From a virus, in the IMG/VR virus record IMGVR_UViG_3300032046_000268, positions 1 through 20,254 of that record: 20,254 nt of DNA; one strand, 5' to 3'. The notes beneath the pieces were generated by a model. It was not told the DNA's origin. It made no database searches and was given only the letters and a program-made list of their open reading frames with translations. Shown here piece after piece: positions 1 to 13,960 of the stretch (positions are counted from its first letter, which is position 1; each line of letters opens with the position of its first letter). The position numbers and the translations under genes are program-made.

Positions 1-75
1 GTTGTGCGTCTCAGCGACCCGTACGACCTCACCCGTTACGGGGTTTACCTTGTCCACAACGAGTTCGCCTCTCAT
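1..75 (-). CDS. Start of an unidentified gene, cut by the left edge of the window
   Basis: An ATG at 75 to 73 opens a frame that stays open for 25 codons to the window edge. It is preceded at good spacing by AGGAG (AGGAGTGGGCAACT then ATG). The visible N-terminus reads MRGELVVDKVNPVTGE, followed by VVRVAETHN, which looks like ordinary coding sequence. The gene begins inside the end of the DUF4031 gene (47-base overlap) in another frame. The fragment is too short to assign a family. Confidence 0.6.
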   Translation of the reverse strand, partial: MRGELVVDKVNPVTGEVVRVAETHN

Positions 76-361: not shown

Positions 362-570
362 CACTCACCGGGTCGCGGTAACCGAGCAAACCTGCGGAGG
401 AACCTCTCCGACGACCAACCCGTGCCGCCGAATGAGTTCGCCCACCTAAAACCCCGTCCGTCCCCTGAATTGTAGGTGGGTCCTCGAAGGGTGATGCGGT
501 CTGACCCACCCGCTGGTTGCTCAACAACCAACACCATTCCTACCCGCAACTGTGTGTGTCTCGGGATCAT
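361..570 (-). CDS. Small hypothetical protein (69 aa)
   Basis: A 69-residue frame begins MIPRHTQLRVGMVLVVEQ and ends RRFARLPRPGE. It fills the gap between the tail-fibre-like gene, whose stop is at 578, and the DUF4031 gene, whose ATG overlaps this stop. The pattern of a short hydrophobic strand, Gly-rich turns (GPTYNSGDGRGF, NSFGGTGW) and a basic C-terminus suggests a small beta-rich domain, but I recognise no family. There is no strong ribosome binding site; the start could also be the GTG at 576. Placement between two coupled genes is the main support. Confidence 0.55.
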   Translation of the reverse strand: MIPRHTQLRVGMVLVVEQPAGGSDRITLRGPTYNSGDGRGFRWANSFGGTGWSSERFLRRFARLPRPGE

Positions 571-577
571 GACCACG

Positions 578-1051
578 TTACACCCATGTGAGGGTCCACC
601 TGATAAGCCACTCAAAAGCACCACTTTTAGCCATCCCCGGGAAGGTTTTTCTTGCCGCCAACACGTGAGTGGAGAACAGGAGACCCGCCTCCTGGAAGAC
701 CACACCGTTACCCAGACCCGCGGCGAGCGTGGCCTCGAACCTCACACTCTTCAGTGCGGGGTAGGAAAACGTCGTAACGGCGAACTCAACAGGGTTGGTT
801 ATCACTGTGTCACCCGCGACCTCGGGTACACCACTCGTCCCGAGTTGGACGTACGCGACCTTGTAGTCCGCGGCGGGTCCACCTCCAACGATCCCTCTCA
901 CCTCCTGGGTGAGGAACCCAGCAACGATGACGTTCTCCTGGTCGACCAACCTCTCCCACTCCGCTTCACCGAACCCTCTTCTGAGGATCTCCAGCCGCCC
1001 TCGTACCTGGGGGATCCTGTCAGAGCGGTTGCCAACTCGGGTGGTAGTCAC
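578..1051 (-). CDS. Phage structural protein, tail-fibre/collar-like
   Basis: This 157-residue protein starts at a GTG with a clear AAAGGAGA site five bases upstream. Its second half matches a pattern I know from phage tail-associated proteins. It has a VQLGTSG strand, then a prediction-friendly series of beta strands, the segment FQEAGLLFSTHVLAARKTFP (compare EaGLf...llAR..Fp), and a C-terminal FEWLIRWTLTWV that resembles the usual i.WtitV ending. These proteins are mostly annotated as tail or fibre-associated. The N-terminal 35 residues are charged and probably helical. A virion role is inferred from pattern and genomic context; receptor binding is possible but not shown. Confidence 0.6.
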   Translation of the reverse strand: MTTTRVGNRSDRIPQVRGRLEILRRGFGEAEWERLVDQENVIVAGFLTQEVRGIVGGGPAADYKVAYVQLGTSGVPEVAGDTVITNPVEFAVTTFSYPALKSVRFEATLAAGLGNGVVFQEAGLLFSTHVLAARKTFPGMAKSGAFEWLIRWTLTWV

Positions 1052-1066
1052 AAGAGTCTCCTTTCC

Positions 1067-1252
1067 TCACTCACCATCCAGGTCTGCGGACAACCAATCC
1101 GCCCTCGTCCTTAGGTGTCTCTCGATCTGGTCCTTCAACTCTGGGTAGACCCACCCCTCACCCAACAACCAGTCCAGGTACGAGGTGGGAACGTCACTGA
1201 TATGTTTCCCTTTGTGGCAACCGAATTGCAGGATCGGGTCGGGTTCAGGCAT
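1067..1252 (-). CDS. DUF3820-like small protein
   Basis: A protein of about 61 residues. The core FGCHKGKHISDVPTSYLDWL followed by LGEGW and a charged helix fits the DUF3820 pattern (FGkhkGk.lsdvP.sYLdWl). That family is annotated in places as a putative quorum-sensing-regulated factor; its actual role is unclear. The ATG at 1252 overlaps the last codons of the glycosyltransferase gene by eight bases. A GTG at 1264 lies just behind GAAGGAG and is an alternative start adding four residues. The gene sits between a glycosyltransferase and a tail-fibre-like gene. Confidence 0.7.
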   Translation of the reverse strand: MPEPDPILQFGCHKGKHISDVPTSYLDWLLGEGWVYPELKDQIERHLRTRADWLSADLDGE

Positions 1253-2102
1253 GATGGGGTACACCCTTCTCCTTCAGGTACGCCTCTGCCGCAAGTTCAC
1301 CACCAACACGCGAGGCAACTCGAGAGAACAGGACATGGTCGAACCCAGCAACCTCTAACTGGTGATCCTTCTCCGTGTAGTACCCTCTGACACACCAGAA
1401 CGGTGCGTGCCCCTCGGAATGGATGACCGACCCTGTGGGACCCACACCGAGGTGTTGAACCTGATAGGGTGGTTTCGTTCGGGTACAATACGAGTAACCC
1501 GCACTCTTAAGTGAGGCAAACTGTACGTCCGCGAACCCCTTCGGTTGGTCGCCGAAGTGGACACCCACTACGTCCAGTGCCCTACGGTCGAACACAACGT
1601 GTGCCTCACCCGTGTAACTCAGTTGTGCGAACATACTCGTACCAAACGAAAAGTGTTCACCCAGTGTCGCTAATCCGAAGAGGGTTAGCGCACCCACCTT
1701 GTGACCCTCCTGGATCAACGCCTGCAGGTCGCCTACACACTCGTGGACCGTCGCGGAGGAGACGAGGACGTCGTCATCCTTGAGAAAGATATAGTCGTAG
1801 GGTGGGTCCACGCTGAGAGCGAGGGTCAACACGTCTCTCCTAGCGAGTCCACACCGTTGGTTTGCCACTGCAAGTGTAGGACGCCCGAGGTAACTCCGCT
1901 TCAGGGTACTCACGTGAATCGCGACACCCTTGGAGAGCATCTCCTCGAGGTACGTGTGGACGTCCTTGTAGGTCGACCCGTCGTCGAAGATCCAGTAGGT
2001 AAACTCGTCCCGCCTGTCCTTGAGGAGCCACCCCGTGGTCAACCTCAACAGGTTTGGCCTGTTGTAGGTGGTCGTGACGACGAGAACTTTAGGGTTGCTC
2101 AC
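1245..2102 (-). CDS. GT-A type (GT2-like) glycosyltransferase
   Basis: This 285-residue protein is expected to transfer a sugar from a nucleotide-sugar donor. The N-terminal VLVVTTTYNRPNLL strand and loop, the DDGS at residues 40 to 43, and the FLKDDDVLV at 107 to 113 (DxD-like metal and donor site) are typical of GT-A glycosyltransferases of family 2 and relatives. The C-terminal half contains Trp/His-rich acceptor-side segments that I cannot assign. It starts at a GTG whose bases overlap the TGA of the metallohydrolase gene (GTGA). With the GT9 gene at 3568 it is the second glycosyltransferase in this late operon. The target may be a phage structural protein, DNA or host surface glycan; the sequence does not decide. 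Confidence 0.82.
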   Translation of the reverse strand: MSNPKVLVVTTTYNRPNLLRLTTGWLLKDRRDEFTYWIFDDGSTYKDVHTYLEEMLSKGVAIHVSTLKRSYLGRPTLAVANQRCGLARRDVLTLALSVDPPYDYIFLKDDDVLVSSATVHECVGDLQALIQEGHKVGALTLFGLATLGEHFSFGTSMFAQLSYTGEAHVVFDRRALDVVGVHFGDQPKGFADVQFASLKSAGYSYCTRTKPPYQVQHLGVGPTGSVIHSEGHAPFWCVRGYYTEKDHQLEVAGFDHVLFSRVASRVGGELAAEAYLKEKGVPHHA

Positions 2103-2614
2103 TTAACGCAAACCTCCGTGGGTTGTCCGACACCCACCTCCGGAAGGTAGTCGCGGATGTGGGGGTTCCCTGGTGGCTTGTGGGAGAAGACCACCCACTT
2201 GACCCGCTTCGCTTTGAACCCTTCCTTCAGTTCCTCCCAAGACTGGTCGCCAGCGAACCTCCGGATAATCTGAAGCAGGTGGTTGCAAAAGACCCGACCG
2301 TGAGCGGGTGAGTTGCGACCAAGGCGGTGTTTGTACATCGCGACGTGGGTCAACTCGTGGAGGACCACAAAATCGTTCCACTTGGACTTAGGTAGCACGA
2401 GCGTGCCCATCCATCCCATGGACGCTCTCCACCAATCAGGACCGACGATGAACTTGAACTCGCGTCTCGCGAAGGGGTACTTGGTCTTCCACCACCGACT
2501 CCCAACTACAGTGGAGATGAACTGTTTCACCTCGTCGAGCGACCCGAACTGCCGTCGGGTAGTGACGAAGCGCTCCGCGTCGTAGACCTTTTGCCTCTGC
2601 GAGTCGCGCTTCAT
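2099..2614 (-). CDS. TIGR04338-like zinc metallohydrolase
   Basis: This 171-residue protein begins MKRDSQRQKVYDAE, close to the RDxQRxkVYxaE opening of the TIGR04338 putative metallohydrolase family. The metal site is HELTH at residues 86 to 90, with a third likely ligand at H105 in SPAHGRVF, giving a HExxH plus downstream His arrangement. The protein is likely a cytoplasmic zinc hydrolase or peptidase; the substrate is unknown. I chose the ATG at 2614 because GGGAG lies nine bases upstream, overlapping the end of the preceding gene. Longer in-frame starts would run into that gene. The tail PTEVCVK ends at the GTGA coupling with the GT2 gene. Confidence 0.75.
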   Translation of the reverse strand: MKRDSQRQKVYDAERFVTTRRQFGSLDEVKQFISTVVGSRWWKTKYPFARREFKFIVGPDWWRASMGWMGTLVLPKSKWNDFVVLHELTHVAMYKHRLGRNSPAHGRVFCNHLLQIIRRFAGDQSWEELKEGFKAKRVKWVVFSHKPPGNPHIRDYLPEVGVGQPTEVCVK

Positions 2615-2619
2615 TTGTG

Positions 2620-2820
2620 CTACTCCCAGTGCTCTCGAATGTGGTCCCTTATCTGCTCGAGTGTGAGCCACCCATAACCCTCGCGTAGAAGCATCGCTTG
2701 GATCTTCTTGAGCCCACTCTCGAACTGAGCCTTCACCCGGTCGGGTGTGGTCTCCACAACTCCCTGGTGTAACGCGTGTACGATCCGCTGCGCGCGTTTG
2801 TCACTCATCAGGTCTGCCAC
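2620..2820 (-). CDS. Small helical protein of unknown function (66 aa)
   Basis: A 66-residue protein with charged, probably helical sequence (SDKRAQRIVHALHQGVVE, KAQFESGLKKIQAMLL, LTLEQIRDHIREHWE). It starts at a GTG behind GGAGG at 11 bases; a later ATG at 2808 is less well placed. A small C-terminal helix-turn-helix is conceivable, but no family is recognised. A perfect TATAAT lies just upstream at 2846 to 2851 and overlaps the stop of the previous gene. Without a recognisable -35 partner it is not called as a promoter. Confidence 0.6.
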   Translation of the reverse strand: MADLMSDKRAQRIVHALHQGVVETTPDRVKAQFESGLKKIQAMLLREGYGWLTLEQIRDHIREHWE

Positions 2821-2846
2821 GGACGATCTACCCTCCTCTCGTTATA

Positions 2847-3566
2847 TTATATGGCAACCCGGTCACCACATTCCGCCGGCATCCGTTGGAACAACTCTTT
2901 CTCTGCCCATACCACGAATGTTGCACCGTTCTGTTGGCACCACAGTCTTCCAGCTTCGAACTTCAACCTCTTCGTCTCGCTCGTAACGTCCCACCCGACC
3001 TCGATCAACTCCCGTCTTCCGTCTCGGTAGGTGACGAGGATGTCTGGGACATACAGTCGCTCCGTTCCCTTCGTATCGGTGTAAGGGATTGAGAAAGGTT
3101 CGTACCTGTAGGAGACGACGGTCACGTCTTTCTCCAACCACTGGAATGCGAGTAACTCGTAGGACGACCGGTGGTAGAACCTCTTTCCATTCTTCGCAGA
3201 CCAAAAGTGACCTACTCGACCCTGAAACCACTTTCCCTCAAGAATAAGTTGCACCACGGTCATAGACATTTTCGGGCGGGACCCCCGCAACTTCGCCCTG
3301 AACTCCTCCGAACGCGGAACCGCAGCGTACTTGTTGCCACGATGCCACGGGTGGGGTCCAGCAGCGTATCGGTTGCCGAGGTTTATCAGGCGAAGCTTCT
3401 CTCTCACCTCTTCACGGATCGGTGGTCGGGGCCTTCGTAACGCCTCCTGTACCTCTGGCCTCTTCGCGGGATTCTTGTCGCCACACATCGACGGTCGAGG
3501 AACCCCACGTCCGCCACCGTACTTGTTGCTAAGGTCCGCCAAACGAATCTTTTCCTCTCGTTCCAT
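2847..3566 (-). CDS. Free-standing homing-type nuclease, NUMOD3-like repeats plus PD-(D/E)XK domain
   Basis: A protein of about 239 residues. The first 100 residues contain several short basic motifs of NUMOD3 type (for example EEVREKLRLINLGNRY, then RSEEFRAKLRGSRPK), which bind DNA in phage homing endonucleases. Residues from about 130 look like a PD-(D/E)XK nuclease of the TnsA/Vsr-like style: a Glu in RSSYELLAFQWLEKD (E137), YVPDILVTYRDG (D175), and RRELIEVGW (E189). The canonical ExK lysine position is a Gly here (E-V-G), so the site is atypical. The ATG at 3566 is one base after the GT9 stop; the ribosome binding site is weak. Such genes are usually mobile within phage genomes. Confidence 0.7.
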   Translation of the reverse strand: MEREEKIRLADLSNKYGGGRGVPRPSMCGDKNPAKRPEVQEALRRPRPPIREEVREKLRLINLGNRYAAGPHPWHRGNKYAAVPRSEEFRAKLRGSRPKMSMTVVQLILEGKWFQGRVGHFWSAKNGKRFYHRSSYELLAFQWLEKDVTVVSYRYEPFSIPYTDTKGTERLYVPDILVTYRDGRRELIEVGWDVTSETKRLKFEAGRLWCQQNGATFVVWAEKELFQRMPAECGDRVAI

Positions 3567-3567
3567 A

Positions 3568-4539
3568 TTACGTAGCAACCCGCGAGGTCTTTTCCACATG
3601 GTTGGCAATGGACTCCACGGAATGGCTCAACATCCTGTCACAACCCGTCTCACGGCACTCCTTCTTCCAGCCCTTGAGGGAGTTGTAGTTGCAAGGGAGA
3701 CTACACCGGGTGCTCTCACCATCAAGGGGGGTGAGGGACGGGTAGGTCCGCGTGATGTTCCTCCCGTCTGTCGGACCGAAGACACCCACCGCGGGGGCAC
3801 CGAGAGAAGCGCACAAGTGGACCATCAAGGAGTCCACTGTGAGGACCACCTTGCACTGCTTCACCACACCAGCGACGAGGGGAATGGGGAGACCCACACA
3901 CAGTGTGGTACCGTCGGGGACCTCTATGGGGGGTACCACACAATCGAACCACACCACGTTACCGGACTTGGAGAGGCGTTCGGCAAGGGGCACCCACAAG
4001 TCTACGGGAAGACTTCTTGCCCTACAGGTGCACCGTGGTTGGTACCCGATCAGAGGTCTACCGAGGTCGCACCTCTGAGTGACCCACTCTCGTGCGCACC
4101 TCATCTCGTCTTCGGAAACACGCCACTGCGGACACGCGCGCGAAACGTCCTCCACACCCCCAGTCCGGGCGAACACCTGAGGACGGTTGAACAACAGTTC
4201 ACCCACACACGTTGCCTCGTACTGGAATGCTGGACAGTACTCGTCTACCACAGGGTAACCTCTGTCCAGGATCGACTTCAGGTATGGGTACTTGGTGGGG
4301 TCGAGGGGGTCGCACCTCCCCCTACGAGTCCTCCGAACGTCCTCCAGGAAACCGAGGCTCCACACCTCATCGACACCCACCAGGTGGCTCGCGGTGTCGA
4401 CAAACGGTTGAGGTGTGTATACGATCACACGCCAATGGGGGTGAGCGAGTTTGATCGCGAGAGCAGCAGCACCGAGGCAGATTACGTCACCGTACCCACC
4501 CGCCTCCCTCAACAAGATGACGCCCTCTTGGTCTCTCAC
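3568..4539 (-). CDS. GT9-like (heptosyltransferase-type) glycosyltransferase
   Basis: This 323-residue protein resembles ADP-heptose:LPS heptosyltransferase-type GT-B enzymes. The N-terminal GVILLREAGGYGDVICLG (residues 6 to 23) matches the first beta strand and glycine loop. A second Rossmann half contains LIGYQPRC, then VVLTVDSLMVHLCASLGAPA followed by VGVFGPTDG (residues 241 to 269), the typical GT9 donor-site signature. The C-terminus has four cysteines (289, 293, 305, 310), as in many GT9 proteins. It starts at a GTG overlapping the stop of the radical SAM gene (GTGA), so the two are probably co-translated. The substrate is unknown. In a late tail operon, glycosylation of a virion protein is as likely as modification of host glycan. 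Confidence 0.85.
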   Translation of the reverse strand: MRDQEGVILLREAGGYGDVICLGAAALAIKLAHPHWRVIVYTPQPFVDTASHLVGVDEVWSLGFLEDVRRTRRGRCDPLDPTKYPYLKSILDRGYPVVDEYCPAFQYEATCVGELLFNRPQVFARTGGVEDVSRACPQWRVSEDEMRCAREWVTQRCDLGRPLIGYQPRCTCRARSLPVDLWVPLAERLSKSGNVVWFDCVVPPIEVPDGTTLCVGLPIPLVAGVVKQCKVVLTVDSLMVHLCASLGAPAVGVFGPTDGRNITRTYPSLTPLDGESTRCSLPCNYNSLKGWKKECRETGCDRMLSHSVESIANHVEKTSRVAT

Positions 4540-5927
4540 TTCTGCTCACCCATTGGTTTACGCCCCTGAGGCGTCAACGCCCTTGGCTTCGGAACAATAC
4601 GGGTTAGGTCAGTCGGAGGGAGGTTGGACATGATCCACGCGGCAGCCTTGAGCCAGATGAAACGGAGTGCGCACTGAGTGGCAACCGGGGCGGATATGTC
4701 ACCGTGCACCCCGAGACTCTCCTCCCTGCAACCACCACCGCAAGAAAACCTCACGGGACACTGCATGCACCCCTTCCGTAAGTAGATCCTGTTGTCCAAC
4801 CACTTCGCCCTGAGTTCCTCGTCGAGACCACCCCGGAACACGTTCCCAATCAACGAGGACTGCTCCCGGTGGCACGCGAAAGTGTCCCCTTTGGAATTTA
4901 CCGACACGTACCCAACTCCAGCACCACATTCAGTTCCGCTGTGGATACAATAGAGGAGTCTCTCGAGGGTCTTGGTGATGTTGTGGAACACGGGTTTCCG
5001 ACCCAGTTGGATCTGCTCGACAAACCAATCCGCCACCTTTAGGTACTGGTCCTCCAACATCAGGAGGTCCTCCTGGGTAATGGTGACCTTGGAGGCATTG
5101 GGGTCGACGCACAGGGACTCCGTGAGGAAGGAGGGTTCGATGGACACGTGGTTCCCGAACCCATCCCAGACGAGTTGGTTCAAGAACTTCGCGACGTCGA
5201 GCATCTCGCCAGCGGTGTCCTTGGTGTAGGTCGCTCTGAGGGTGATGGACCCCGTGAACTGTTCCTGCCTGAGGAGCCTCAATCCCTCGAGAACGTCCTT
5301 GAAGGAACCCCTCCCGTTCGCGTCCTTCCGGTGCCTGTCGTGGACGTGTTCGGGTCCGTCGAGGGACACGATGAAGGAGAACCTCCTACCCCTCAAGAAC
5401 GCCAACTTGTCCTTCGAGAACAACGTCCCGTTGGTGGTGATGTGGAAGTGTGGTTGAGCGGGGAAGGTCCTCCCCTCGAAGTACCTGACGACGTCCACGA
5501 TCGTCCGCCAGTTCAAGAGTGGTTCACCACCGAAGAACCCGATACTCCCACCCTTGGCTGCCTCCACATTCGGGAAGAGGTAGTCGATCGCGGACCTCGC
5601 GGTGTCGAACGACATCATGTCCACACCAGGGTAATATGCCCGGACCAGGCAATAATCGCATCGAAGGTTACACGCGTGACAAGCCTCGATGACGAGATAC
5701 CTGCACGAGGAGAGCCTGTAACAGGGGAACACAGGTCGGTACTCCACCCCGAGGACGAGGTCGGGTGGGTGGTTTTTGGGGTTCTCACCAGGTTCGAGTT
5801 GTGCTAAGACCATCGAGTTGCAGTCGTACACGAACCTGCGGTCCCTAACAGTGAACTCGAACAGCTCGGGTTTCGCACCACCTGTGCACCTCACCTTAGG
5901 CGAGGTATCCGCGTTGAGAAGTTTCAT
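4536..5927 (-). CDS. Radical SAM/SPASM enzyme, peptide-maturase-like
   Basis: A 463-residue enzyme. An N-terminal segment (FTVRDRRFVYDCNSMVLAQL) resembles the leader region of SCIFF/QhpD-type maturases. The radical SAM cluster motif is C86-x3-C90-x2-C93 in CHACNLRCDYC, and the SAM-binding GGEP is at 133 to 136. The C-terminal SPASM domain is complete and canonical: C334-x12-G-x4-C352, then C387-x2-C390-x5-C396-x3-C400-x18-C419, enough for two auxiliary [4Fe-4S] clusters. Such enzymes form thioether or other cross-links in peptides, or oxidise Cys/Ser in sulfatases. It is preceded by AGGAG and coupled (ATGA) to a Cys-rich 66-residue gene, and followed by a GT9 gene (GTGA). The Cys-repeat tail proteins at 7431 to 10892 are attractive substrates. 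An anaerobic sulfatase-maturase-like role is less likely because no sulfatase is present. Confidence 0.9.
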   Translation of the reverse strand: MKLLNADTSPKVRCTGGAKPELFEFTVRDRRFVYDCNSMVLAQLEPGENPKNHPPDLVLGVEYRPVFPCYRLSSCRYLVIEACHACNLRCDYCLVRAYYPGVDMMSFDTARSAIDYLFPNVEAAKGGSIGFFGGEPLLNWRTIVDVVRYFEGRTFPAQPHFHITTNGTLFSKDKLAFLRGRRFSFIVSLDGPEHVHDRHRKDANGRGSFKDVLEGLRLLRQEQFTGSITLRATYTKDTAGEMLDVAKFLNQLVWDGFGNHVSIEPSFLTESLCVDPNASKVTITQEDLLMLEDQYLKVADWFVEQIQLGRKPVFHNITKTLERLLYCIHSGTECGAGVGYVSVNSKGDTFACHREQSSLIGNVFRGGLDEELRAKWLDNRIYLRKGCMQCPVRFSCGGGCREESLGVHGDISAPVATQCALRFIWLKAAAWIMSNLPPTDLTRIVPKPRALTPQGRKPMGEQK

Positions 5928-6124
5928 CCTACTCTCCTAATGGGTGTGGAGGCGGTCCACTTTGGAACCCTCTCTCGGAGACCTAACAAGCACACAGCGA
6001 AAGGTTTGAGGAGGTAGGTCTGGAACCCTACACAGCACCGAGTGTAGAACTCACACCTCCGGTTCGCGTAGTGTGTGCATGCCTCACAGACAGCCAACCT
6101 AGTCTTTTTCACGTCCGGACTCAC
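5924..6124 (-). CDS. Small Cys-rich protein coupled to the radical SAM gene
   Basis: A 66-residue protein with eight cysteines overall and a core motif CEACTHYANRRCEFYTRCC, then a later single Cys in FAVCLLG. The layout C-x2-C...C...CC...C resembles a family of small putative zinc-binding proteins common in phages (CksC..y....C..CGCfm......CP.gkW). Its TGA overlaps the ATG of the radical SAM gene, so they are co-translated. It could be a metal-binding accessory protein. Because RiPP precursors often sit directly upstream of their maturase, it could instead be a substrate. The GTG at 6124 has no strong ribosome binding site; a GTG at 6112 is an alternative. The 5' end overlaps the preceding 44-residue gene. 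Confidence 0.65.
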   Translation of the reverse strand: MSPDVKKTRLAVCEACTHYANRRCEFYTRCCVGFQTYLLKPFAVCLLGLRERVPKWTASTPIRRVG

Positions 6125-6233
6125 TCACGGAACAGTAGTGCCCGTTTCGATGGTCCAGAACAACGACCACCCCATCCTCAAACCCCACCGACAGGATATA
6201 ACCTTCCAGGTCAATTGTGATGTAGCGCACCAT
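6099..6233 (-). CDS. Very small protein (44 aa), function unknown
   Basis: The 140-base gap between the TM2-like gene and the Cys-rich gene holds an open frame from an ATG at 6233 to a TAG at 6101 to 6099. A GGATAGGTG-type ribosome binding sequence lies immediately upstream. The product begins MVRYITIDLEGYILSVGFED, followed by a hydrophobic GVVVVLDHRNGHYCSV and a charged end. It looks like a small two- or three-strand beta protein. No family is recognised. The frame overlaps the next gene by 26 bases if that gene starts at 6124. Confidence 0.5.
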   Translation of the reverse strand: MVRYITIDLEGYILSVGFEDGVVVVLDHRNGHYCSVSESGREKD

Positions 6234-6264
6234 CACCTATCCACCACCCACACTACATTCGGGT

Positions 6265-6627
6265 TCACCCGCGTAACCGCTCGACCTCGGACCGGAGACT
6301 AGAGATGGTACCCAAGAGTTCCTTGTGTTGTCTCTCCCTCTCGTATCTCTCACGTTGTTCCTTGATCTGGTGCCTCGCGAGTGCCCATCCACCAACAGCA
6401 CCCGCCACCACATACGGATTGGTGGGTTTTGGGTAGAGCGCCATATGGGGAACCCAGAACACGTCCACCAGTTGACCCACCCCGAGGAGACCCAAGGTGA
6501 ACAACCACAGGAAACCGGTAAAGGTCCTCCCGGTGTACAACCTGTGGAGACCACACAAACCGACTGCACACCCCAACCACAGGAGGTACGAGAGGAAGAT
6601 GCTCTTCCCTTTAACCTTCGGGTACAT
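6265..6627 (-). CDS. TM2-domain-like membrane protein with C-terminal coiled coil
   Basis: A 120-residue protein. Residues 1 to 60 fit a TM2 domain: a basic N-terminus (MYPKVKGKS), a first membrane helix (IFLSYLLWLGCAVG), the connecting G-HR-Y-GR element (CGLHRLYTGRTFTGF) and a second helix ending in a polar LVDVFW. A third short hydrophobic segment (YVVAGAVGGWALA, about 72 to 85) is followed by a charged, probably coiled-coil tail rich in Glu, Arg and Gln to the C-terminus. I chose the ATG at 6627 for the perfect AAGGAGGT seven bases upstream; the longer frame has no such site. A membrane protein inside a tail operon may act on the host envelope during infection or release; this is speculative. 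Confidence 0.72.
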   Translation of the reverse strand: MYPKVKGKSIFLSYLLWLGCAVGLCGLHRLYTGRTFTGFLWLFTLGLLGVGQLVDVFWVPHMALYPKPTNPYVVAGAVGGWALARHQIKEQRERYERERQHKELLGTISSLRSEVERLRG

Positions 6628-6686
6628 AGCTGACCTCCTTACGTTTGTGTGCCACACACCCAGGGCCAACTGATTACCCCATTAGG

Positions 6687-6959: not shown

Positions 6960-7029
6960 TGCGAAACCTCCTTGTGCTTGTGCATCGTACACCTGGATTA
7001 TATGTCAACCTCCCCACACAACTCCGGAA

Positions 7030-7434
7030 TCACGCGGCCAAAGCCTTGCCATTCAGGTCGTACCAAACCCCATCGTCCATCAGAACTGCGATAATGTGCC
7101 CCCTAGCATCGACACGAAGGTTGTGTAGAATGGGTCTCCCTGCGGGCCATGGGCTCTCGAACGACAACTCGTTCCCGTCCAAGTCGTACCAACCAGCACC
7201 ACCGTCCGGGTATAGAGGGTGCTTCCCCGTGTCGTACCACTCCTGCACCTCACGAATGTGCCCGCGAGCGTCGATCCTCAGGTTTACGACATACTGGAGG
7301 TTGTACCACGTTGGGGCAAGTTCTTGCCCGCCTAGATCGTACCACCTGTACAACATCACCTCCCAATGCCACTTCGCCACATTTACAACATGGCCTCTAG
7401 CATCGACACGGAGTCCTACCAGCACGCGACTCAT
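7030..7434 (-). CDS. Tail-associated protein with three DARGH/WYDL repeats
   Basis: A 134-residue protein built from three imperfect repeats of about 40 to 50 residues. Each has LR[VI]DARGH[VI] followed by two to three polar residues, and then a WYDL-[GDN]-G element (WYDLGGQEL, WYDLDGNEL, WYDLNGKAL). The order is DARGHVVNV early, DARGHIREV in the middle and DARGHIIAV late. The ATG overlaps the stop of the preceding gpI-like gene (ATGA), so it is co-translated with a tail protein and is likely to be a virion or fibre-related part. Trp/Tyr-rich repeats are compatible with a beta-rich, possibly glycan-binding fold, but no known family was recognised. Confidence 0.65.
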   Translation of the reverse strand: MSRVLVGLRVDARGHVVNVAKWHWEVMLYRWYDLGGQELAPTWYNLQYVVNLRIDARGHIREVQEWYDTGKHPLYPDGGAGWYDLDGNELSFESPWPAGRPILHNLRVDARGHIIAVLMDDGVWYDLNGKALAA

Positions 7435-9302
7435 GGCAAGTCAGCCTCCGTATCGAGTTTTGTGGTCTGCGGGTCGCCATGGACGAGTTGTTTGTAGAAA
7501 GGACTTGTGGGGTCGGTGTCGATCACGAGCCAACCGTCGTCCTCCCCACCCTGTGGACGCTGGTACACCAAGTCACCACCCTCGATACCCTGTCCAGTGG
7601 TGAGCCACTCGTAACGGCAGTTGTCCTCCCGGATGTAGTAGAACGAGACCCTAGCACCACGAGGTGGTGGGTCCTTGAACGTAACTGTGAAGTTCCTCGT
7701 ACCCCGGTAGTTCACCCTCTTCTGTGCCACAGCAACGTTCGGGTCCACGTCACCACCGAGGGTACCGTACCATGTAGTGTTACCCCCGGGTGTGACCATC
7801 TCGATGGTGTGTACGTTCTGTGTGATCTCCCTCCGTTTGACCGACACAGGTGCGGTATAACTCTGCTTGGTTGAGCACTTCAGGTGGATCGTACCCGCAC
7901 TCGTGCTCTGGACTAGGTTAGTCTCCGCACCACTGTTGTCCTCGATAACAACTGCGTCTCCAGGAGAGAACAACGGTGCGGAAGGCGAAGAGATGGAGGT
8001 AGCACCCTGTGGGACAGACCCGATAACAGTTGCAGTGAGTGCGTCGAGTTTCGCCTCGAACCTGACGCTACAGGGGTGGGGTGGTGCACCCACATTGCCC
8101 GACCAAGCGGTAATGGTTCCGTTACCCTTAGTCGGGTGTGACTCGCCCACCTCGTTACCAGGGACACATCTAACGTGGGTCCAATCACCGTCGTCGACGT
8201 CTGGCAACACTTCGTCGTCCGAAAGCTTCGCGTCACCCACCACGGTGTAATAGAAGACAGGGATAGGTCCACCCACGGGAGTGACCCACCACGGGTCGTT
8301 CTCGTCAGCGGGTGGGAACGTCTCACCCACACAGGGGAACCAGACACGACCCTTTGGTCCCTCATCCTCCCGACCCTTCACAACCGCGGGGAAGATCTCG
8401 GTCTCAGCACACGCCTGACAACCTGACTGACAAGAACCAGACTGGCAACCTTGTTCGCAACTCCCTGCTTCACACCTTGCCCGGCAGTCGAGTGCGCAAG
8501 GTTGGTGTGCCTCACCCGAACCTTCACACCCACCCTGACACGCGACCTGGCACGCGGAGTACTCGCAGGTGGTCTCACAATAGGCCTGGCAGGAGGACTC
8601 GCACGTGACCTGACAAGTAACGTCAACTGTGACTCCTCCGGGACCATCCAAGATGCCACCGGAGGAGTCGCTGTAGGTACCCACCAACCCACTCCCAGCA
8701 AGGGAGTCGCTAACACGAAGGGTTTCCTCCTGGTCAACCCTCTCCATGTTGTGTCGCAGAACAACGTGAATCGGTCTAAGACTCTCGATGACGGGGACCA
8801 GTTGCGAGGCGTCAGTGGGGGAGAGGAATACGGGGTTCCCGAGTGGGTCCAAATAGTACAGGTCGAACCTCGCAGCACGGAGTTGGTGTGTGTAGTCACT
8901 AAACCTAGAGTAGTCACCCTCCTCGTAGGGGACACTCTTCCAGAGTTCCCACGCCTTGTAGAGGATCCCCTCGACCCACCTAAACTGCTTGTCCCATCCG
9001 AGGTGGGTACCCTTCACCTTGTAGAACCCGACCAGGTTCTTGACGAACCACCGCTGGAAGGGGAGACCCAACCCGGAGTCGACCATCGTCCCGAGGGTCG
9101 CGGAGATGAACAGGAGGAACTCGGGGTCGGTGATGTCGACGTCCATGATACGACCGAACTCACGGATCTCCGCCTCGGTAACACCAACCTCTTGTTCCAG
9201 ACACTCGACCACCTTCTGGAAGTTCCCCACCGCATCGGGTCCACCAGACGCGAGGGAGTCCTTATAGCGGACTATCCTCGGGATGAGGTCCCAGAGAGCC
9301 AT
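7431..9302 (-). CDS. gpI-like tail protein with internal Cys-repeat domain and beta-rich C-terminus
   Basis: A 623-residue protein. Residues 1 to about 185 form a Tail_P2_I/gpI-like domain (LIPRIVRYKDSLAS, then YKVKGTHLGWDKQF, WELWKSVPYEE, DYTHQLRAARFDLYYLDP, PIHVVLRHN). Residues 230 to 298 form a Cys-rich stretch of 16 Cys with C-[E/Q]-x-x spacing (CQVTCESSCQAYCETTC and similar). From about 305 to the end is a beta-rich, Thr/Gly/Pro-rich part of unknown fold. The N-terminal domain is clearly paralogous to that of the next gene upstream (WELWK...DYTHQL-AAR-D, PIHV). gpI-type proteins sit at the baseplate periphery next to the fibres. The start is an ATG; the ribosome binding site (AGGG) is modest. 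Confidence 0.8.
   Translation of the reverse strand: MALWDLIPRIVRYKDSLASGGPDAVGNFQKVVECLEQEVGVTEAEIREFGRIMDVDITDPEFLLFISATLGTMVDSGLGLPFQRWFVKNLVGFYKVKGTHLGWDKQFRWVEGILYKAWELWKSVPYEEGDYSRFSDYTHQLRAARFDLYYLDPLGNPVFLSPTDASQLVPVIESLRPIHVVLRHNMERVDQEETLRVSDSLAGSGLVGTYSDSSGGILDGPGGVTVDVTCQVTCESSCQAYCETTCEYSACQVACQGGCEGSGEAHQPCALDCRARCEAGSCEQGCQSGSCQSGCQACAETEIFPAVVKGREDEGPKGRVWFPCVGETFPPADENDPWWVTPVGGPIPVFYYTVVGDAKLSDDEVLPDVDDGDWTHVRCVPGNEVGESHPTKGNGTITAWSGNVGAPPHPCSVRFEAKLDALTATVIGSVPQGATSISSPSAPLFSPGDAVVIEDNSGAETNLVQSTSAGTIHLKCSTKQSYTAPVSVKRREITQNVHTIEMVTPGGNTTWYGTLGGDVDPNVAVAQKRVNYRGTRNFTVTFKDPPPRGARVSFYYIREDNCRYEWLTTGQGIEGGDLVYQRPQGGEDDGWLVIDTDPTSPFYKQLVHGDPQTTKLDTEADLP
8409..8615 (-). repeat. 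Cys tetrapeptide repeat domain (16 Cys) in the second gpI-like protein
   Basis: Residues 230 to 298 of the protein encoded at 7431 to 9302. Sixteen Cys occur in 69 residues, mostly spaced C-x3-C, usually with E or Q right after the Cys. A short gap without Cys (GSGEAHQP) splits the domain. It is the same repeat type as in the upstream paralogue but shorter and more degenerate. Confidence 0.85.
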
Positions 9303-9308
9303 TCAGAG

Positions 9309-10892
9309 CTACCCTAAAGGTAACTGGCAAGTAACCTCGCAAGTTGCTTCGCAACCACCGAGTTCGCAGACGGTTTGACAGGAGGACTGACAGACCGCCT
9401 GGCAGGTGTTCTCACACACCACCTCACAACCACCCAGTTGGCAGTGGGTCTGGCAGGTGTTCTCACACACCACCTCACAACCACCTAGTTCGCAACTAGT
9501 CTGACAGGTAACCTCACATCCCGTCATACAACCACCGAGTTCGCAACTAGTCTGACAGGCGAGTTGGCAGGTGGTTTGGCACGAAACGGACTCACACTCA
9601 GCCTCACACCCACCGAGTTCGCAAATTCCCTCACACCCTGCTTCACACACAGCTTGGCACCCCGGTTCGCAACCAACCTGGCAGGGACCCTGGCAGACGA
9701 GTTGGCAGGCTAGTTGGCAATCGGTCTCACACACTACCTCACAACCGAGTTCGCAGGTGGTCTGGCAGGTTGCCTGACAGGTTACCTGACAGGTGTTCTC
9801 ACATGCGGTCTCGCAACCCGCGAGTTCACAGGACCCTTGACAGACGTTCTCGCATGGGGTCTCGCAACCACCTTGACAGTAAGCCTGACAGGTGCCCTCA
9901 CACACCACCTCACAACCGAGTTCACAAACGGTCTGACAGGTGGTCTGGCAGGTGGTCTCACACGAGGTCAACTGGCAAGCGAGTTCGCAAGAGGTCTCAC
10001 ACCCACCCTGGCATGCAGTCTGACAGGTGGTCTCACAAGTTGCTTCACACCCGGTCTCGCAACTGCCTGCCTCACAACTCGAACCCTCGCAACCGACCGA
10101 CTCACATTGTGCCTCACACCAAGTGACACACGTGGTGAGGACCGTGACGGCGTCGCTCATACCAAGGGGTGGTTCGGTGAAGTGGCCACCTAACTGGTGG
10201 GGCGACCAAAGTTCACCACCAGTCTCACATGTTGCCTCACAACCCGTCTCACAACCGCCTGTGGACTCGCACGCGGAGTCGCAAGCGTGGGGGACGAGAT
10301 CGGTGGGGATGTCCCAGGGTGTTCCGGGCGACCTGATCAACACATGTATGGGCAAAACCGGAGTGAGGAGTGCGACCAACTCGTTCCTCACCACGGGGTC
10401 GAGCGACACCGGTAGGGTAGGGTAACCAGTGGGAACGATGTCCACTCGTGCGGCTTTGAGTTGGTGTGTGTAGTCCCTAAACGGGCTGTAGTCCCACTCC
10501 TCGTGAACCTTTGTCTTCCACAACTCCCAGGGGACGTGACCAGCCCACCCCCAGAGGGTCAACAGTGAGGAGAGACTTAGGTGGGCTCCCTTCAAGAGCC
10601 ACACCAACACCATACTCTTCACCACCACCCGCTTCTTTGTCGCAGACCAGGAACCATTGTAACCACCACACACGTAGTAAGCGAGGTAGGGGAGGAAGCC
10701 TAGAGGGCAGGTATCGGAGTCGGCCAAGTCCACCAGGTGGCGGATCTCCTCGCTGGTGACCTCCGTTTCCGACTCCAACCCATGAACGATCTTCTTTAGG
10801 ATGGACTCGGTGCCGACCGTTTCGTCGAGTATGCCACTCGCAAGGAGACTTTTAGACCGAACGACAAGAGGGAGGAGGTTGTAAAGGTCCAC
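9309..10892 (-). CDS. gpI-like tail protein with about 70-cysteine C-terminal repeat domain
   Basis: A 527-residue protein. Residues 1 to about 190 are a gpI/Tail_P2_I-like domain (LLPLVVRSKSLLASGILDE, KGAHLSLSSLLTLWGW, WELWKTKVHEE, DYTHQLKAARVD, PIHVLIRSP). From 204 to 522 there are about 70 Cys: five at 204 to 222, a Cys-free linker (SPHQLGGHFTEPPLG), then about 65 in 268 residues. Nearly every Cys is followed by Glu or Gln, giving C-[E/Q]-x-x units with a C-[E/Q]-LGG five-residue step about every 17 residues near the end. The start is a GTG behind GAGGAAGAAG. It lies between gpJ and its own paralogue, matching the P2 V-W-J-I order. The Cys domain is too dense for ordinary disulfide proteins and may be cross-linked, metal-loaded or disulfide-laddered. 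Confidence 0.82.
   Translation of the reverse strand: MDLYNLLPLVVRSKSLLASGILDETVGTESILKKIVHGLESETEVTSEEIRHLVDLADSDTCPLGFLPYLAYYVCGGYNGSWSATKKRVVVKSMVLVWLLKGAHLSLSSLLTLWGWAGHVPWELWKTKVHEEWDYSPFRDYTHQLKAARVDIVPTGYPTLPVSLDPVVRNELVALLTPVLPIHVLIRSPGTPWDIPTDLVPHACDSACESTGGCETGCEATCETGGELWSPHQLGGHFTEPPLGMSDAVTVLTTCVTWCEAQCESVGCEGSSCEAGSCETGCEATCETTCQTACQGGCETSCELACQLTSCETTCQTTCQTVCELGCEVVCEGTCQAYCQGGCETPCENVCQGSCELAGCETACENTCQVTCQATCQTTCELGCEVVCETDCQLACQLVCQGPCQVGCEPGCQAVCEAGCEGICELGGCEAECESVSCQTTCQLACQTSCELGGCMTGCEVTCQTSCELGGCEVVCENTCQTHCQLGGCEVVCENTCQAVCQSSCQTVCELGGCEATCEVTCQLPLG
9327..10283 (-). repeat. Cys tetrapeptide repeat domain (about 70 Cys) in the first gpI-like protein
   Basis: Residues 204 to 522 of the protein encoded at 9309 to 10892. 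Units follow C-[E/Q]-x-x, with common forms CETT, CQTT, CELG, CEVV, CENT and CQAV, and a fifth residue inserted at irregular intervals, most regularly as C-[E/Q]-LGG near the C-terminus. This produces a higher-order repeat of 17 residues (51 bases). The DNA repeats are in-frame coding repeats, not CRISPR. Confidence 0.9.
9401..9485 (-). repeat. Identical 34-base direct repeats at a 51-base offset
   Basis: Bases 9401 to 9434 recur identically at 9452 to 9485. A separate 22-base identity runs from 9487 to 9508 and 9538 to 9559, again at a 51-base offset. Both encode parts of the 17-residue super-repeat (CEVV-CENT units). The identity at nucleotide level suggests recent duplication or recombination between units. 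Confidence 0.85.
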
Positions 10893-10909
10893 ACCTATCT
10901 TCTTCCTCT

Positions 10910-13900
10910 CTACGCCGTCCCGATGGTGAGATTACCCCTCACCACGAGTTGGGTCTTCAAAACTGGGATGTCCTCGCTGGGGGTTCTCAACATCTGCCTG
11001 TACGTAGACCTCACCACCGTTCCCGCACCTGGGACAGCAGCGAAGGTGAAGTCGTACGCACCAGTATCGTAGTCGATGTGGTTGACACCCCCAGGGTTGA
11101 CATCACCAACCAACGCACCGTTTCCGTCGTCGGTCACGACCTGAATGCCATCGGAGAACGCGATGCCCTTCTCAGAGGTGATCGGGTCCCAGGGGACGAT
11201 CGGGGGGTACGTAACCACACCCGTGAACCTTGCAGTGGACCCGTCAGAGGTGGTCTCAACCTCTCCCCTCTGGTAATCAGCCACGTTCCTGTAGGTCGCG
11301 TACACGAGTTGGCCAACAGCGGGTGCGGCGGTGAACGTCACGTCCACCGCACCTGTAGCGTAGTCGATCGTACCCGTACCCGAACCCGTTAGGTTACCCT
11401 CCCCGTCGTCGGTTAACGACTGGGTCCCCGCGAAGACAACCACGGTGTGAGGAACCACAGGGAGGTTCGGTTCGAGATCGAGTGTCGCGATGAAGTGGGT
11501 TGTAACCGCGTTACCCACACCAATCGCGTCGGTCGACTTTAGGGAGGCAGTGATGAGGTTGACCACAGCATGGGAGACACCAACTGAGTCCTGGATTGCG
11601 TTGTACACCTTACTTATCCGTAGGGACACCCCGGGTTCGTTCTCCGCACTATCGAACAGGTCAACCAAACTGTCAGTCACGTTCGTCACAACCACCGCAG
11701 AGGTATACTCACTCTCGGGAGTCACAGTCACATCGATGTCCACATAGAGGATAACCCCATTGAGAACCTCCACGTCAGTACACACCACACGGATAGCACC
11801 CTCACCATTGTTCATGAAGTACGTCTGAAGAGCGTCTTTCAAGCCCACTGAGGGTTCGACGATATTCCCACCACCATCTCTCGCCCATGTGTAGAGTTCG
11901 ACAGTGTTGAGTTCCGGGATCTCTTGCTTCAGTTTGGCTTTCGCGAAGGCGACCTTCCCGTAGACAGGACTGCTGAAAGCAGTCGCGAGTGTGTCGAAGT
12001 CTCTCTCAGTAACCGCCCTCCCGTTCGTGGTAGCCCATCGAGGGATCCACAACTTCGCGTGCTCGATGGTCTCCCTCTCTTCACCACCACTCCCTCGGAA
12101 AACGTCATTCACAACCCCAACGGACACAGAGGTCGGGGGAAGCACACCATCTAGGTACCCATCAATACTGGTGTTCACCTCACCGATGTTGATGTTACCT
12201 CTCACACCACCACCCACCCTGTAGGTGACCACGATAGAGGACCCAGCGGGAGGGACCTGACCATTCACACCATCCCCAAACAGGACGTACACCTTGTCGT
12301 TCTCGTCGTGTTCCACCTGGTAGGCTGGGGAGGTGGTTGTGGCAAACACGAGAGAGGAGAGTGGAGACCACACAGCACCATCAACCACCACACTGATGGA
12401 CCCGCTGACGACACCCGGTTCAGTCAGAGCAAGCCTCAACCAGGTAGCACCCGATCCGACGAACGACTCACTCCGAGCCTCACCCTCGGTGAAGGTGGCG
12501 GACCCCGTGAGAGACCCAGCGGAGATCCTCTGTTCAGCCAACACCCTGAAGGTCACACCCTTCGCGGTCTGGACAGTGGTCCCCACAGGGATAACCACGT
12601 CCACAACCTGGGGTGCACCGATGGTTGCAGCGCACACAACCGCGGCACCAGTTGGGAGACCTAGTTGGTACCCCACCAACTTCCCCAACCTGATAACCGA
12701 TTCTCTATCCCGGGCTGTTGGAAGGAAACAATTGTGCACAAACACACCAGACCGGAGTCCGAAGTTATGGTGCTGCTCCACACGCAAATCGTAACAGTCC
12801 TCCCTTTCAACAAGACTCCGCACCACCTTCACACGGTGGTTATTAGCACACGCATACTGGTTGGACCAAGTCCTCTTGAGAGTTTCAGATCGCTTCAGGT
12901 TTGACTCGTGTGTCTGCTTACGTCCCAATAGTGCCGCACTGATCCTACACCGGTGCTCGAACGACTTGGCTCGTCCTGTGAGAGCCTCACTTACTTGCGC
13001 ACCAAACCCCTCGGGTTTAGGCACACCGGTTAGCAGGGATGAGACGTGACGTTTTGTGTCCTCCGTGTGGTGGTACCCACGAGCGAACTGGTTGCCTCCC
13101 ATCCATGCCGCGTGTTGGGGTCGCTTTTTACCACGGAAGGCGGAACCCGCACCATATCGCCACTCAGGAGTAACAGTGGGTCCGGAGATTTCACCAGATT
13201 TCACACGCAACCAATATCGTTGAAGACCCTCAGAGATCCTCCTACGGTGGTCCGCTGTTTTCGGTGTAGAATGCAACTCACGGTGGCCACACCACGTCAT
13301 CCACTCAAGCACCTCGGGACGATTGTCTCTTGTGTTGAAGCCACCATCAGGTTGCCTCTTGTGGTGAACCACTTCAAGGGGCACACCAAGAGCAAAGCAC
13401 AAGTGAGTCCGGACAAGTTTCTTTATATCTGGTTGATAGAGTAACTCGTAACCCCAACGGTCGTACCAGCGGTACAGTGGCATCAGGGACGTACCAGGAG
13501 TGAGATCCTTCGCCTCCCTGTAGGTACCGTCACGGAGCATCCATAGGTGGTCTGGGGTACAGCGAACGGATTGGTTGTTGTCGAGAATGACCTCGACCAG
13601 TTCGGCGTTAAGCCGAGTTTTACTCACACCCGTACAGCGACCTGGAACGATCTTCCCGGAAGAGTGGTCGTGGGAGTAAACCCAGAATGGGTCACGACCG
13701 ACGAGGTCCTTAATCAGGGCTTCGGTGCCATCCACGAGGGGGATTACAGTATCTCCAGTTAGGCACTCGTTTGCACTGAAATCTAGATAAAAACTCAGGA
13801 TATCGTGGGTGTAGGCCACCAACTCCAACCACGCCATCCCTATGGAACTCTCATAAAAGTTGCGCCAAGTATCGGGGAACTTCGCCTGGAGGTGAGCCCG

Positions 13901-13960
13901 GAGGGCCACCATCACACTGTCGAAGTCCCGCGCGGTATAGTCGATCCTTGGAGGTGCCAC
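10910..13960 (-). CDS. gpJ-like baseplate wedge protein interrupted by an intein
   Basis: A 1016-residue precursor; removing the intein (residues 66 to 410) leaves a 671-residue baseplate J-like protein. The N-extein contains RIDYTARDFDSVMVALRAHL and the WLELVAYTHDILSFYLDFSANE segment typical of gpJ/XkdT proteins. The C-extein resumes with CFLPTARDRESVIRLGKLVG, the classic conserved follow-on, then PTGAAV and beta-rich domains. The last 190 or so residues hold two copies of an IDYxTGAxDxTF...YR unit. It forms the contractile baseplate wedge arm and contacts gpI and gpW proteins. The GTG start is well placed behind AGGAGG (nine bases). It follows the gp25-like gene and precedes the gpI-like genes, as in P2-type order. 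Confidence 0.9.
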   Translation of the reverse strand: MAPPRIDYTARDFDSVMVALRAHLQAKFPDTWRNFYESSIGMAWLELVAYTHDILSFYLDFSANECLTGDTVIPLVDGTEALIKDLVGRDPFWVYSHDHSSGKIVPGRCTGVSKTRLNAELVEVILDNNQSVRCTPDHLWMLRDGTYREAKDLTPGTSLMPLYRWYDRWGYELLYQPDIKKLVRTHLCFALGVPLEVVHHKRQPDGGFNTRDNRPEVLEWMTWCGHRELHSTPKTADHRRRISEGLQRYWLRVKSGEISGPTVTPEWRYGAGSAFRGKKRPQHAAWMGGNQFARGYHHTEDTKRHVSSLLTGVPKPEGFGAQVSEALTGRAKSFEHRCRISAALLGRKQTHESNLKRSETLKRTWSNQYACANNHRVKVVRSLVEREDCYDLRVEQHHNFGLRSGVFVHNCFLPTARDRESVIRLGKLVGYQLGLPTGAAVVCAATIGAPQVVDVVIPVGTTVQTAKGVTFRVLAEQRISAGSLTGSATFTEGEARSESFVGSGATWLRLALTEPGVVSGSISVVVDGAVWSPLSSLVFATTTSPAYQVEHDENDKVYVLFGDGVNGQVPPAGSSIVVTYRVGGGVRGNINIGEVNTSIDGYLDGVLPPTSVSVGVVNDVFRGSGGEERETIEHAKLWIPRWATTNGRAVTERDFDTLATAFSSPVYGKVAFAKAKLKQEIPELNTVELYTWARDGGGNIVEPSVGLKDALQTYFMNNGEGAIRVVCTDVEVLNGVILYVDIDVTVTPESEYTSAVVVTNVTDSLVDLFDSAENEPGVSLRISKVYNAIQDSVGVSHAVVNLITASLKSTDAIGVGNAVTTHFIATLDLEPNLPVVPHTVVVFAGTQSLTDDGEGNLTGSGTGTIDYATGAVDVTFTAAPAVGQLVYATYRNVADYQRGEVETTSDGSTARFTGVVTYPPIVPWDPITSEKGIAFSDGIQVVTDDGNGALVGDVNPGGVNHIDYDTGAYDFTFAAVPGAGTVVRSTYRQMLRTPSEDIPVLKTQLVVRGNLTIGTA
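12731..13765 (-). mobile_element. Intein with HNH homing endonuclease in gpJ
   Basis: A 345-residue insertion at residues 66 to 410 of gpJ. It begins with Cys1 in CLTGDTVIPLVDG (block A). It has a block B motif with the TxxH pattern (CTPDHLWMLRDG), and ends with DCYDLRVEQHHNFGLRSGVFVHN, the block F/G ending with penultimate His and terminal Asn. The +1 extein residue is Cys (CFLPTA). In between are an HNH endonuclease-like motif (VVHHKRQPDGGFNTRDNRPE) and several NUMOD3-like segments (HHTEDTKRHVSSLLTG, SFEHRCRISAALLGRK and others). It should self-splice, ligating SANE to CFLPTA, and home as an endonuclease-bearing element. Splicing was not tested. Confidence 0.93.

Follow-up and report, generated by a model that had tools for sequence, protein, structure and literature searches.

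Introduction

Radical S-adenosylmethionine (radical SAM, rSAM) enzymes of the PapB, SCIFF maturase and QhpD families attach the sulphur of Cys to a carbon atom in a side chain, giving a thioether. With PapB, Cys and Asp/Glu are joined by nested links along a repeated motif; QhpD acts within a protein subunit, where it connects Cys to Glu/Asp; and the SCIFF enzyme Tte1186 joins Cys32 to Thr37, five residues apart, in vitro. The rSAM genes of Campylobacter phages have been ascribed to host metabolism in one account (PMC2853527). Here we describe a cassette in 20,254 nucleotides of viral DNA (IMG/VR record IMGVR_UViG_3300032046_000268, positions 1 to 20,254; hereafter the window), where an rSAM/SPASM enzyme is encoded beside two tail proteins with long runs of regularly spaced Cys and is followed by genes for two glycosyltransferases, GT9 and GT2-like. 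The cassette is real and conserved, and its centre is the rSAM enzyme paired with the Cys-run tail proteins. We consider it likely that this enzyme introduces interlocked Cys-to-Glu/Gln thioethers by the dozen and so staples the tail proteins, with GT9 and GT2 as conserved partners. We base this on the enzyme class, the forward and reverse association of enzyme and repeats, a directional C-x4-[E/Q] rule in the repeats, the kinship with SCIFF maturases and the precedent of PapB, QhpD and Tte1186.

An rSAM/SPASM Enzyme Related to Thioether Maturases

A first-pass annotation of the window had called two glycosyltransferases and a radical SAM enzyme, and these calls hold (PF01075, the DDD motif of family A5, and PF04055 with a SPASM motif; Table 1). 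The rSAM protein reaches 65.9 bits against PF04055 (E 6.5e-18; cut-off 29.5), which places it in the radical SAM superfamily. The three Cys of its SAM-cluster motif are invariant in the family alignment (A3), and an FFGGEP motif is also present. The SPASM consensus reads C-x(9-15)-G-x4-C, then C-x2-C-x5-C-x3-C, then a final C; all seven Cys are found in the window enzyme (residues 334–352 and 387–400, with the seventh Cys at 419), which is thus a SPASM protein. Inteins interrupt the rSAM maturases of two other loci at SPASM Cys (one in L199:5687-8329, minus strand; two in L167:5668-8220, minus strand), a placement that points to these Cys being conserved active-site residues.

More than 70 NCBIfam models match the window enzyme, the best being PapB (NF047865; E 9.5e-59), the SCIFF maturase (TIGR03974; 1.4e-57) and QhpD (TIGR03906; 4e-52). 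The scores of 199.3, 195.6 and 177.4 bits stay below the respective cut-offs of 340, 425 and 453, so that the enzyme falls outside these families as curated; the same is true of the CXXX-repeat maturase (TIGR04115; 78 bits, cut-off 350). PapB or SCIFF is likewise the best NCBIfam model for nine of ten other phage rSAM proteins, the tenth having no model at 1e-20 and a weak QhpD/PapB match. Among PDB sequences the best match is CteB (5wgg; E 5e-44 over residues 71–433), followed by an entry at 5e-15. A fold search with an AlphaFold model of the enzyme (mean predicted local distance difference test score 80.5) also ranks CteB first (Z 36.2, root-mean-square deviation 3.2, 397 residues aligned), the best entry other than CteB having a Z of 30.1. 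At the N-terminus, where RRE-bearing RiPP maturases have a peptide-binding RRE domain, the CteB alignment starts from model residue 19; three strands are predicted there, and confidence is low at residues 54–71.

The Cys-Run Tail Proteins

The two tail proteins are paralogues, each combining a baseplate domain with a C-terminal Cys-run region. The domain is recognized by TIGR02242 below its cut-off in both (E 9.4e-8 in tail protein B, E 2e-7 in tail protein A) and in B also by PF09684 (E 4e-6); B holds 72 Cys and A 22. Cys residues in the runs are spaced mostly by four and sometimes by five. The 53 C[EQ]xx units of tail protein B derive from 46 distinct DNA 12-mers and give 35 distinct peptides, with both Cys codons in common use. 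From the variety of 12-mers and codons it follows that the repeat is conserved as an amino-acid pattern, and a low-complexity tandem repeat was rejected as its nature. The repeats had at first been described as Thr-rich and as possible carriers of glycans. They are instead rich in Cys, Glu and Gln, with Thr at about 17% at each of the two variable positions.

A BLAST search with tail protein B gave no match among named phages. When the tail domain was used as bait, Cys runs were present in the tail genes of eight of nine loci, the ninth (L160) ending inside the gene. The first tail-protein alignment (A1) was too divergent for scanning and another (A2) was used in its place; a scan of genome contigs with the tail domain produced 275 pattern stretches, none of which was confirmed. 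The ranthipeptides are made from a small precursor peptide with leader and core; the candidate substrates found here belong to the tail and include a baseplate domain.

Co-occurrence of rSAM Genes and Cys Repeats

The association was found from both directions. In the forward scan, viral contigs were searched with a DNA pattern of five C[EQ]xx units, which gave at least 119 stretches, most of them in low-complexity records. A filter asking for four or more units and, at each of the two variable positions, an entropy of 1.5 bits or more kept 23 records with true non-tandem repeats and rejected 95 as low-complexity. An rSAM domain was encoded in 18 of the 23 (16 over the cut-off). The controls, 50 of the 95 low-complexity records picked in order, had one in 3 cases (Fisher 6e-10). 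Two of the positive records, L074 and L100, are near-copies belonging to the CXXX-repeat maturase family (the rSAM of L074, scored as L170, has 485.6 bits against the TIGR04115 cut-off of 350), and L003, with four rSAM genes, may be host DNA; dropping L100 and L003 leaves 16 of 21. In three of the five rSAM-less records (L013, L055, and L118) the contig stops within the Cys gene. L108 extends for 119 bases beyond its Cys gene on the start side, which is where the rSAM gene is located in its relatives L053 and L227. The fifth, L102, is taken up below.

In the reverse scan the rSAM alignment served as bait in viral contigs with no Cys criterion, and the best 80 of 157 relatives were kept. After removal of L002, which is the locus of the window, and of six loci that were repeat contigs or copies (L204, L206, L234, L269, L272, and L276), 73 loci were counted, 22 of them near (profile E < 1e-80) and 51 far. 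An open reading frame (ORF) with a Cys repeat lay on the same strand within 10 kb in 17 of 22 near and 18 of 51 far loci. Four further near loci (L210, L219, L221, and L222) carry short runs below the threshold, such as CETYCEQTEESGCMTGCEVGCEIGIE, which in L210 and L222 precede collagen-like stretches, and in the last (L202) the contig is broken 259 bases upstream. Across the 73 loci there are 51 Cys-repeat ORFs, 34 on the same strand within 2 kb and 3 on the opposite strand. The rSAM gene thus has a Cys-rich candidate substrate gene beside it, as in ranthipeptide systems, and two separate phage rSAM lineages adjoin Cys-repeat genes of tail or fibre-like type.

Some Cys-run loci (L168:1135-3304, minus strand, and L161) hold two to four rSAM genes side by side. 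Among SPN3US-like cultured jumbo phages, all five examined have two small adjacent ORFs with a Cys at every fourth position beside two rSAM genes. These read CGGTCSWTCSNGC..., with Ser/Gly in place of Glu/Gln, and in Salmonella phage SPN3US itself (L195) they span 5061–5459 and 5473–5874, no gene being annotated at the first; L190, L196, L197, and L198 are similar. In Achromobacter phage JWF (L189) a tail-fibre gene with a Hint domain contains a CNCDCNCNCSC stretch, and an rSAM gene follows two genes further downstream.

A Directional Pairing Rule in the Cys Runs

The position of Glu/Gln was recorded in runs of at least three Cys spaced 3–5 apart, in two sets of proteins. Set 1 comprised 27 proteins that had not been fetched by Cys pattern and were chosen by at least two C[EQ]xxC, some of them near-identical to pattern-found ones; set 2 comprised 17 distant pattern-found proteins. 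The Glu/Gln background across the sets is about 12.8–14.5%. In set 1, Glu/Gln follows an inner Cys at spacing four in 692 of 799 cases (87%), versus 7 of 47 (15%; background 12.8%) for the first Cys of a clean run. Past the last Cys of a clean run it stands at +5 in 24 of 37 cases (65%), at +4 in 4 and at +6 in 8. Set 2 behaves in the same way: Glu/Gln follows the first Cys in 8 of 49 and an inner Cys in 730 of 803 cases, and past the last Cys is found at +5 in 30 of 41, at +4 in none and at +6 in 1. A run thus opens with a Cys lacking a partner Glu and closes with a Glu lacking a Cys. As Glu/Gln is frequent at +5 of the last Cys and near background after the first, it tracks the Cys five residues upstream and not the neighbouring Cys, and in a logistic model its weight is highest at Cys position −5. 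Thr was not raised at +5 or +1 of run Cys.

The tail proteins of the window follow the same rule. In tail protein B, 67 of 72 Cys are followed by Glu/Gln at +5 or, where +5 is itself a Cys, at +6, compared with a mean of 14.1 and a maximum of 27 when the non-Cys residues were shuffled; in tail protein A, 16 of 22 Cys fit (shuffles, mean 2.5 and maximum 9). The asymmetry between run start and run end is what donor-acceptor pairing of the form C-x4-[E/Q] predicts, and this directional rule suggests the trace expected of nested Cys-to-Glu/Gln thioether rings.

The Glycosyltransferases GT9 and GT2

With 42.6 bits against a PF01075 gathering score of 22, GT9 is a member of that family; four C-terminal Cys are invariant in its alignment (A4). 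The GT2-like protein stays below the gathering score of PF00535 (16.8 against 23.3 bits) and belongs to a coherent family (A5), the DDD motif being invariant in four homologues. GT9 is translationally coupled to the SPASM enzyme, as was pointed out early on: the rSAM stop and GT9 start overlap by 4 nt (GTGA). The order rSAM-GT9-GT2 recurs in other phages, which makes the cassette more than chance. GT9 occurs within 3 kb of the rSAM gene in 18 of 22 near loci and GT2 within 6 kb in 10 of 22, both versus 0 of 51 far loci; the GT9 profile was built from three sequences with seeds in the near loci L201, L212, and L214, and without these three loci GT9 is found in 15 of 19. These counts support a shared module for GT9, GT2 and the rSAM enzyme, in which the two glycosyltransferases may act on the tail proteins or on a host glycan. 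The initial idea of a modification cassette for virion proteins is therefore strongly backed for the rSAM enzyme by its Cys-repeat neighbours and thioether-making relatives, and for the glycosyltransferases as far as module membership goes.

It is conceivable, and a serious possibility even if we would not call it probable, that the tail proteins are glycosylated by GT9 and GT2, with Thr/Ser in the Cys units as perhaps the sites, and that the rSAM enzyme is a helper. The enrichment at near loci and the 4-nt overlap would both be accounted for. Against this, Thr is sparse at the variable positions, and all 51 far loci are without GT9/GT2, yet 18 of them have Cys runs and an rSAM gene, so that Cys runs need neither glycosyltransferase. 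Glycans are accordingly not favoured as the main fate of the Cys repeats, and the evidence assigns the repeats first to the rSAM enzyme, not to the glycosyltransferases as had been suggested; tail glycosylation is compatible with thioether stapling as an added step. A more doubtful alternative is that GT9 and GT2 alter a host surface glycan, e.g., as a block to superinfection, and that the operon is merely shared. Among characterised GT9 enzymes in the PDB, lipopolysaccharide (LPS) heptosyltransferases come closest, at E 1e-4 or weaker, but the linkage of GT9 is tight and specific to the near rSAM clade. Autotransporter heptosyltransferases, TibC included, were absent from the PDB matches of GT9 at E 0.01; a link of GT9 to these enzymes is not supported, though still conceivable.

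Proposed Thioether Stapling of the Phage Tail

The cassette would, in our preferred reading, covalently mature the phage's own tail. In the C-terminal runs of the two baseplate-associated proteins each Cys donor would face a Glu/Gln acceptor five residues downstream, with neighbouring pairs interlocking as C-x-x-x-C-E-x-x-C-E. The enzyme is expected to bind SAM at the CxxxCxxC cluster and to generate a 5'-deoxyadenosyl radical, which would abstract a hydrogen from a side-chain carbon of the acceptor, probably C-gamma; the Cys sulphur, which an auxiliary cluster may hold in place, would then close the thioether (−2 Da each) by analogy with PapB, CteB, and QhpD. Tens of such rings may give a rigid, redox-proof and hard-to-unfold chain that connects the baseplate domain with the protein's outer part, and GT9 and, in an inner clade, GT2 may decorate the same tail proteins.

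Several observations weigh against thioether stapling. The window enzyme reaches the cut-off of no curated NCBIfam family. Threshold-passing same-strand Cys-repeat genes are missing from 33 of 51 far rSAM loci, and L102, a Cys-repeat record of 35.6 kb, lacks an rSAM match in Pfam; a divergent rSAM candidate lies a few genes from its Cys gene (QhpD model, E 2.7e-7). Cys pairs at spacing five have Glu/Gln at +6 (85–93%), and the rule therefore has to be worded as after the next Cys, or at +5. Run ends are not independent, the proteins being homologous; per protein, the majority of run ends fit in 12 of 18 and 8 of 13, the corresponding figures for the first Cys being 3 of 22 and 2 of 15. With respect to precedent, the SCIFF linkage is disputed, Cys32-Thr34 being reported in vivo. 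PapB does not use Asn, whereas Gln is a frequent acceptor in the phage runs, and PapB failed with C-x4-D in one report, a later one finding loose spacing.

It is unlikely, in our estimate, that the rSAM enzyme modifies the Cys runs through another bond or pairing (an alpha-carbon sactionine, a Cys-Ser/Thr link within the unit, or a non-thioether) while Glu/Gln serves recognition or packing. The association evidence fits such a bond equally well, SPASM chemistry is as varied as the number of matching NCBIfam models implies, and even the CteA link is disputed between Thr37 and Thr34. However, the closest models and structures make non-alpha thioethers, the directional +5 rule fits donor-acceptor pairing, and the Thr frequencies at +5 and +1 give such a link no trace. 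That the Cys runs are a period-4 repeat forming a metal- or disulphide-lined fibre and the rSAM enzyme a metabolic passenger, in keeping with the host-metabolism account of PMC2853527, is very improbable in view of the two-way association, the abutting same-strand genes, the enzyme class and a start/end asymmetry that is unexpected for a symmetric repeat.

Beyond the window, we lean towards an undescribed class of virion maturation in which phages belonging to at least two rSAM lineages use an encoded thioether maturase of their own to turn their tail or fibre proteins into long chains of interlocked C-x4-[E/Q] macrocycles. The rings would number a few in short linkers, about 70 in the window protein and more than 100 in others, with the largest clade paired with GT9. 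Neither a virion substrate nor a C-x4-[E/Q] rule appears to have been described in the literature searched; the class of the enzyme itself is known. Searches on radical SAM with phage tail, thioether, tail fiber or CXXX repeat found no earlier description, and none of the listed matches on ranthipeptides and phages concerns virion modification by its title and the start of its abstract.

If stapling is true, rSAM peptide chemistry, whose other known targets are small natural products and a single enzyme subunit, also acts on a structural protein of a virus. Unexplained phage rSAM genes would gain a concrete job, where one published account offers only host metabolism. Stapled-peptide engineering would have numerous natural pairs of enzyme and substrate to draw on, together with a simple rule for pairing, and extremely tough tail parts are predicted. 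Confirmation would establish a covalent, redox-independent hardening of a viral injection machine, and its products would be among the most heavily cross-linked made by rSAM enzymes.

Genomic Context

All genes listed are on the minus strand (Table 1). The tail-operon setting first described for the cassette is borne out by the T4-like baseplate genes upstream of it: from the high end, the order is gp26-like, tape measure-like, gp53-, gp5-, gp25-, and gp6-like (gp26 and gp25 being labels that we assume), then tail proteins B and A, small ORFs, the rSAM gene and GT9, and finally the TnsA-like endonuclease, the HEXXH protein and the GT2-like gene. The gp6/J-like gene contains an intein at 12731–13765, after residue 65, with limits set by motif. 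Accessory genes between the two glycosyltransferases, which had also been noted, are the endonuclease, the HEXXH metalloprotein and a 66-residue ORF. The endonuclease has repeated short N-terminal motifs and is placed like a mobile insertion. It is probably outside the module, since GT9 and GT2 are direct neighbours in L153, L157, and L158; the HEXXH protein is probably outside it as well.

Table 1. Features of the window with coordinates, strand and the match or motif on which each assignment is based.
Feature	Position	Strand	Basis
Radical SAM/SPASM enzyme, 463 aa, proposed tail-protein thioether maturase	4536..5927	-	PF04055
SAM-cluster motif CNLRCDYC (CxxxCxxC), aa 86-93	5649..5672	-	
SPASM auxiliary-cluster motifs C-x12-G-x4-C and C-x2-C-x5-C-x3-C	4728..4928	-	motif; aligns to CteB
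Tail protein B, 527 aa, TIGR02242/P2 gpI-kind baseplate domain and long Cys-run region	9309..10892	-	
Cys-run region of tail protein B, residues 204-527, 70 Cys	9312..10283	-	
Tail protein A, 623 aa, paralogue of tail protein B, shorter Cys run	7431..9302	-	
Cys-run region of tail protein A, residues 230-302, 16 Cys	8397..8615	-	
GT9 glycosyltransferase	3568..4539	-	PF01075 E 5.9e-11
GT2-like glycosyltransferase with invariant DDD	1245..2102	-	PF00535 E 0.0068
TnsA-like endonuclease between GT9 and GT2	2847..3608	-	PF08722 E 3.3e-11
HEXXH metalloprotein	2099..2671	-	TIGR04338 E 2.9e-9, below cut-off
gp6/J-like baseplate wedge protein	10910..13960	-	phrog_219 E 8e-29

The window comes from a large tailed phage. 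Positions 1–7121 overlap a 56.9-kb contig (G001) and positions 7467–19302 a 54.3-kb contig (G078), both at 99.9% identity, and from these overlaps the genome is probably at least 110 kb. Both contigs differ from the window in and beside 7030–7434, where a 134-residue protein with three LR(V/I)DARGHI-type repeats adjoins tail protein A. G001 codes for a T4-type portal and for a ribonucleotide reductase with a TSCPD domain. It also encodes a family A DNA polymerase that carries a fused uracil-DNA glycosylase domain; such a fusion is recorded at L150:7464-10043 (minus strand). The oxygen sensitivity of enzymes such as the rSAM maturase suggests an anaerobic or micro-oxic host. TSCPD-type ribonucleotide reductases are usually B12-dependent, which would agree with such a host.

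Comparison with Known Systems

In a 41-row tree of rSAM proteins, midpoint rooted and with some long branches, the near phage enzymes form one group (100/99), which lies with bacterial SCIFF-type enzymes, and the distant phage enzymes form the other side (99/94). The canonical SCIFF peptide GGCGECQTSCQSACKTSC is encoded in 41 of the 80 bacterial loci nearest to the phage rSAM among the matches listed. The top bacterial locus among these matches (L279; planctomycete metagenome-assembled genome CAIUPP010000138.1) encodes the phage module of a Cys-run protein (1391 residues), an rSAM enzyme and GT9, possibly a hint at the host or a binned phage.

The GT9 protein shares with GT9 heptosyltransferases a PF01075 score above the gathering score and differs in that its gene lies outside any LPS-pathway context. 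The CXXX-repeat target maturase (TIGR04115) is likewise an rSAM enzyme paired with targets having a Cys at every fourth position, but its target is a small peptide. With the SCIFF system (CteA/CteB, Tte1186a/Tte1186; TIGR03974) the likeness is closest in the enzyme, CteB being the best match in both PDB sequence and fold. The SCIFF precursor core CQTSCQSACKTSC has a Cys period equal to that of the phage runs, and the spacing of five reported for Cys32-Thr37 in vitro is that of the phage rule. On the other hand, the SCIFF substrate is a peptide of roughly 45–60 residues, whereas the candidate phage substrates are for the most part tail proteins, several hundred residues long and at the extreme holding more than 100 Cys, and the phage runs have Glu/Gln at the acceptor place. 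The freyrasin system (PapA/PapB; NF047865) offers the best or near-best NCBIfam model and nested Cys-to-acidic links, with C-x3-D in place of the C-x4-[E/Q] of the phage runs. Finally, QhpD (TIGR03906) resembles the proposed phage maturase in acting inside a protein subunit and not on a small natural-product peptide; its substrate is one small enzyme subunit with three links, and not a virion protein.

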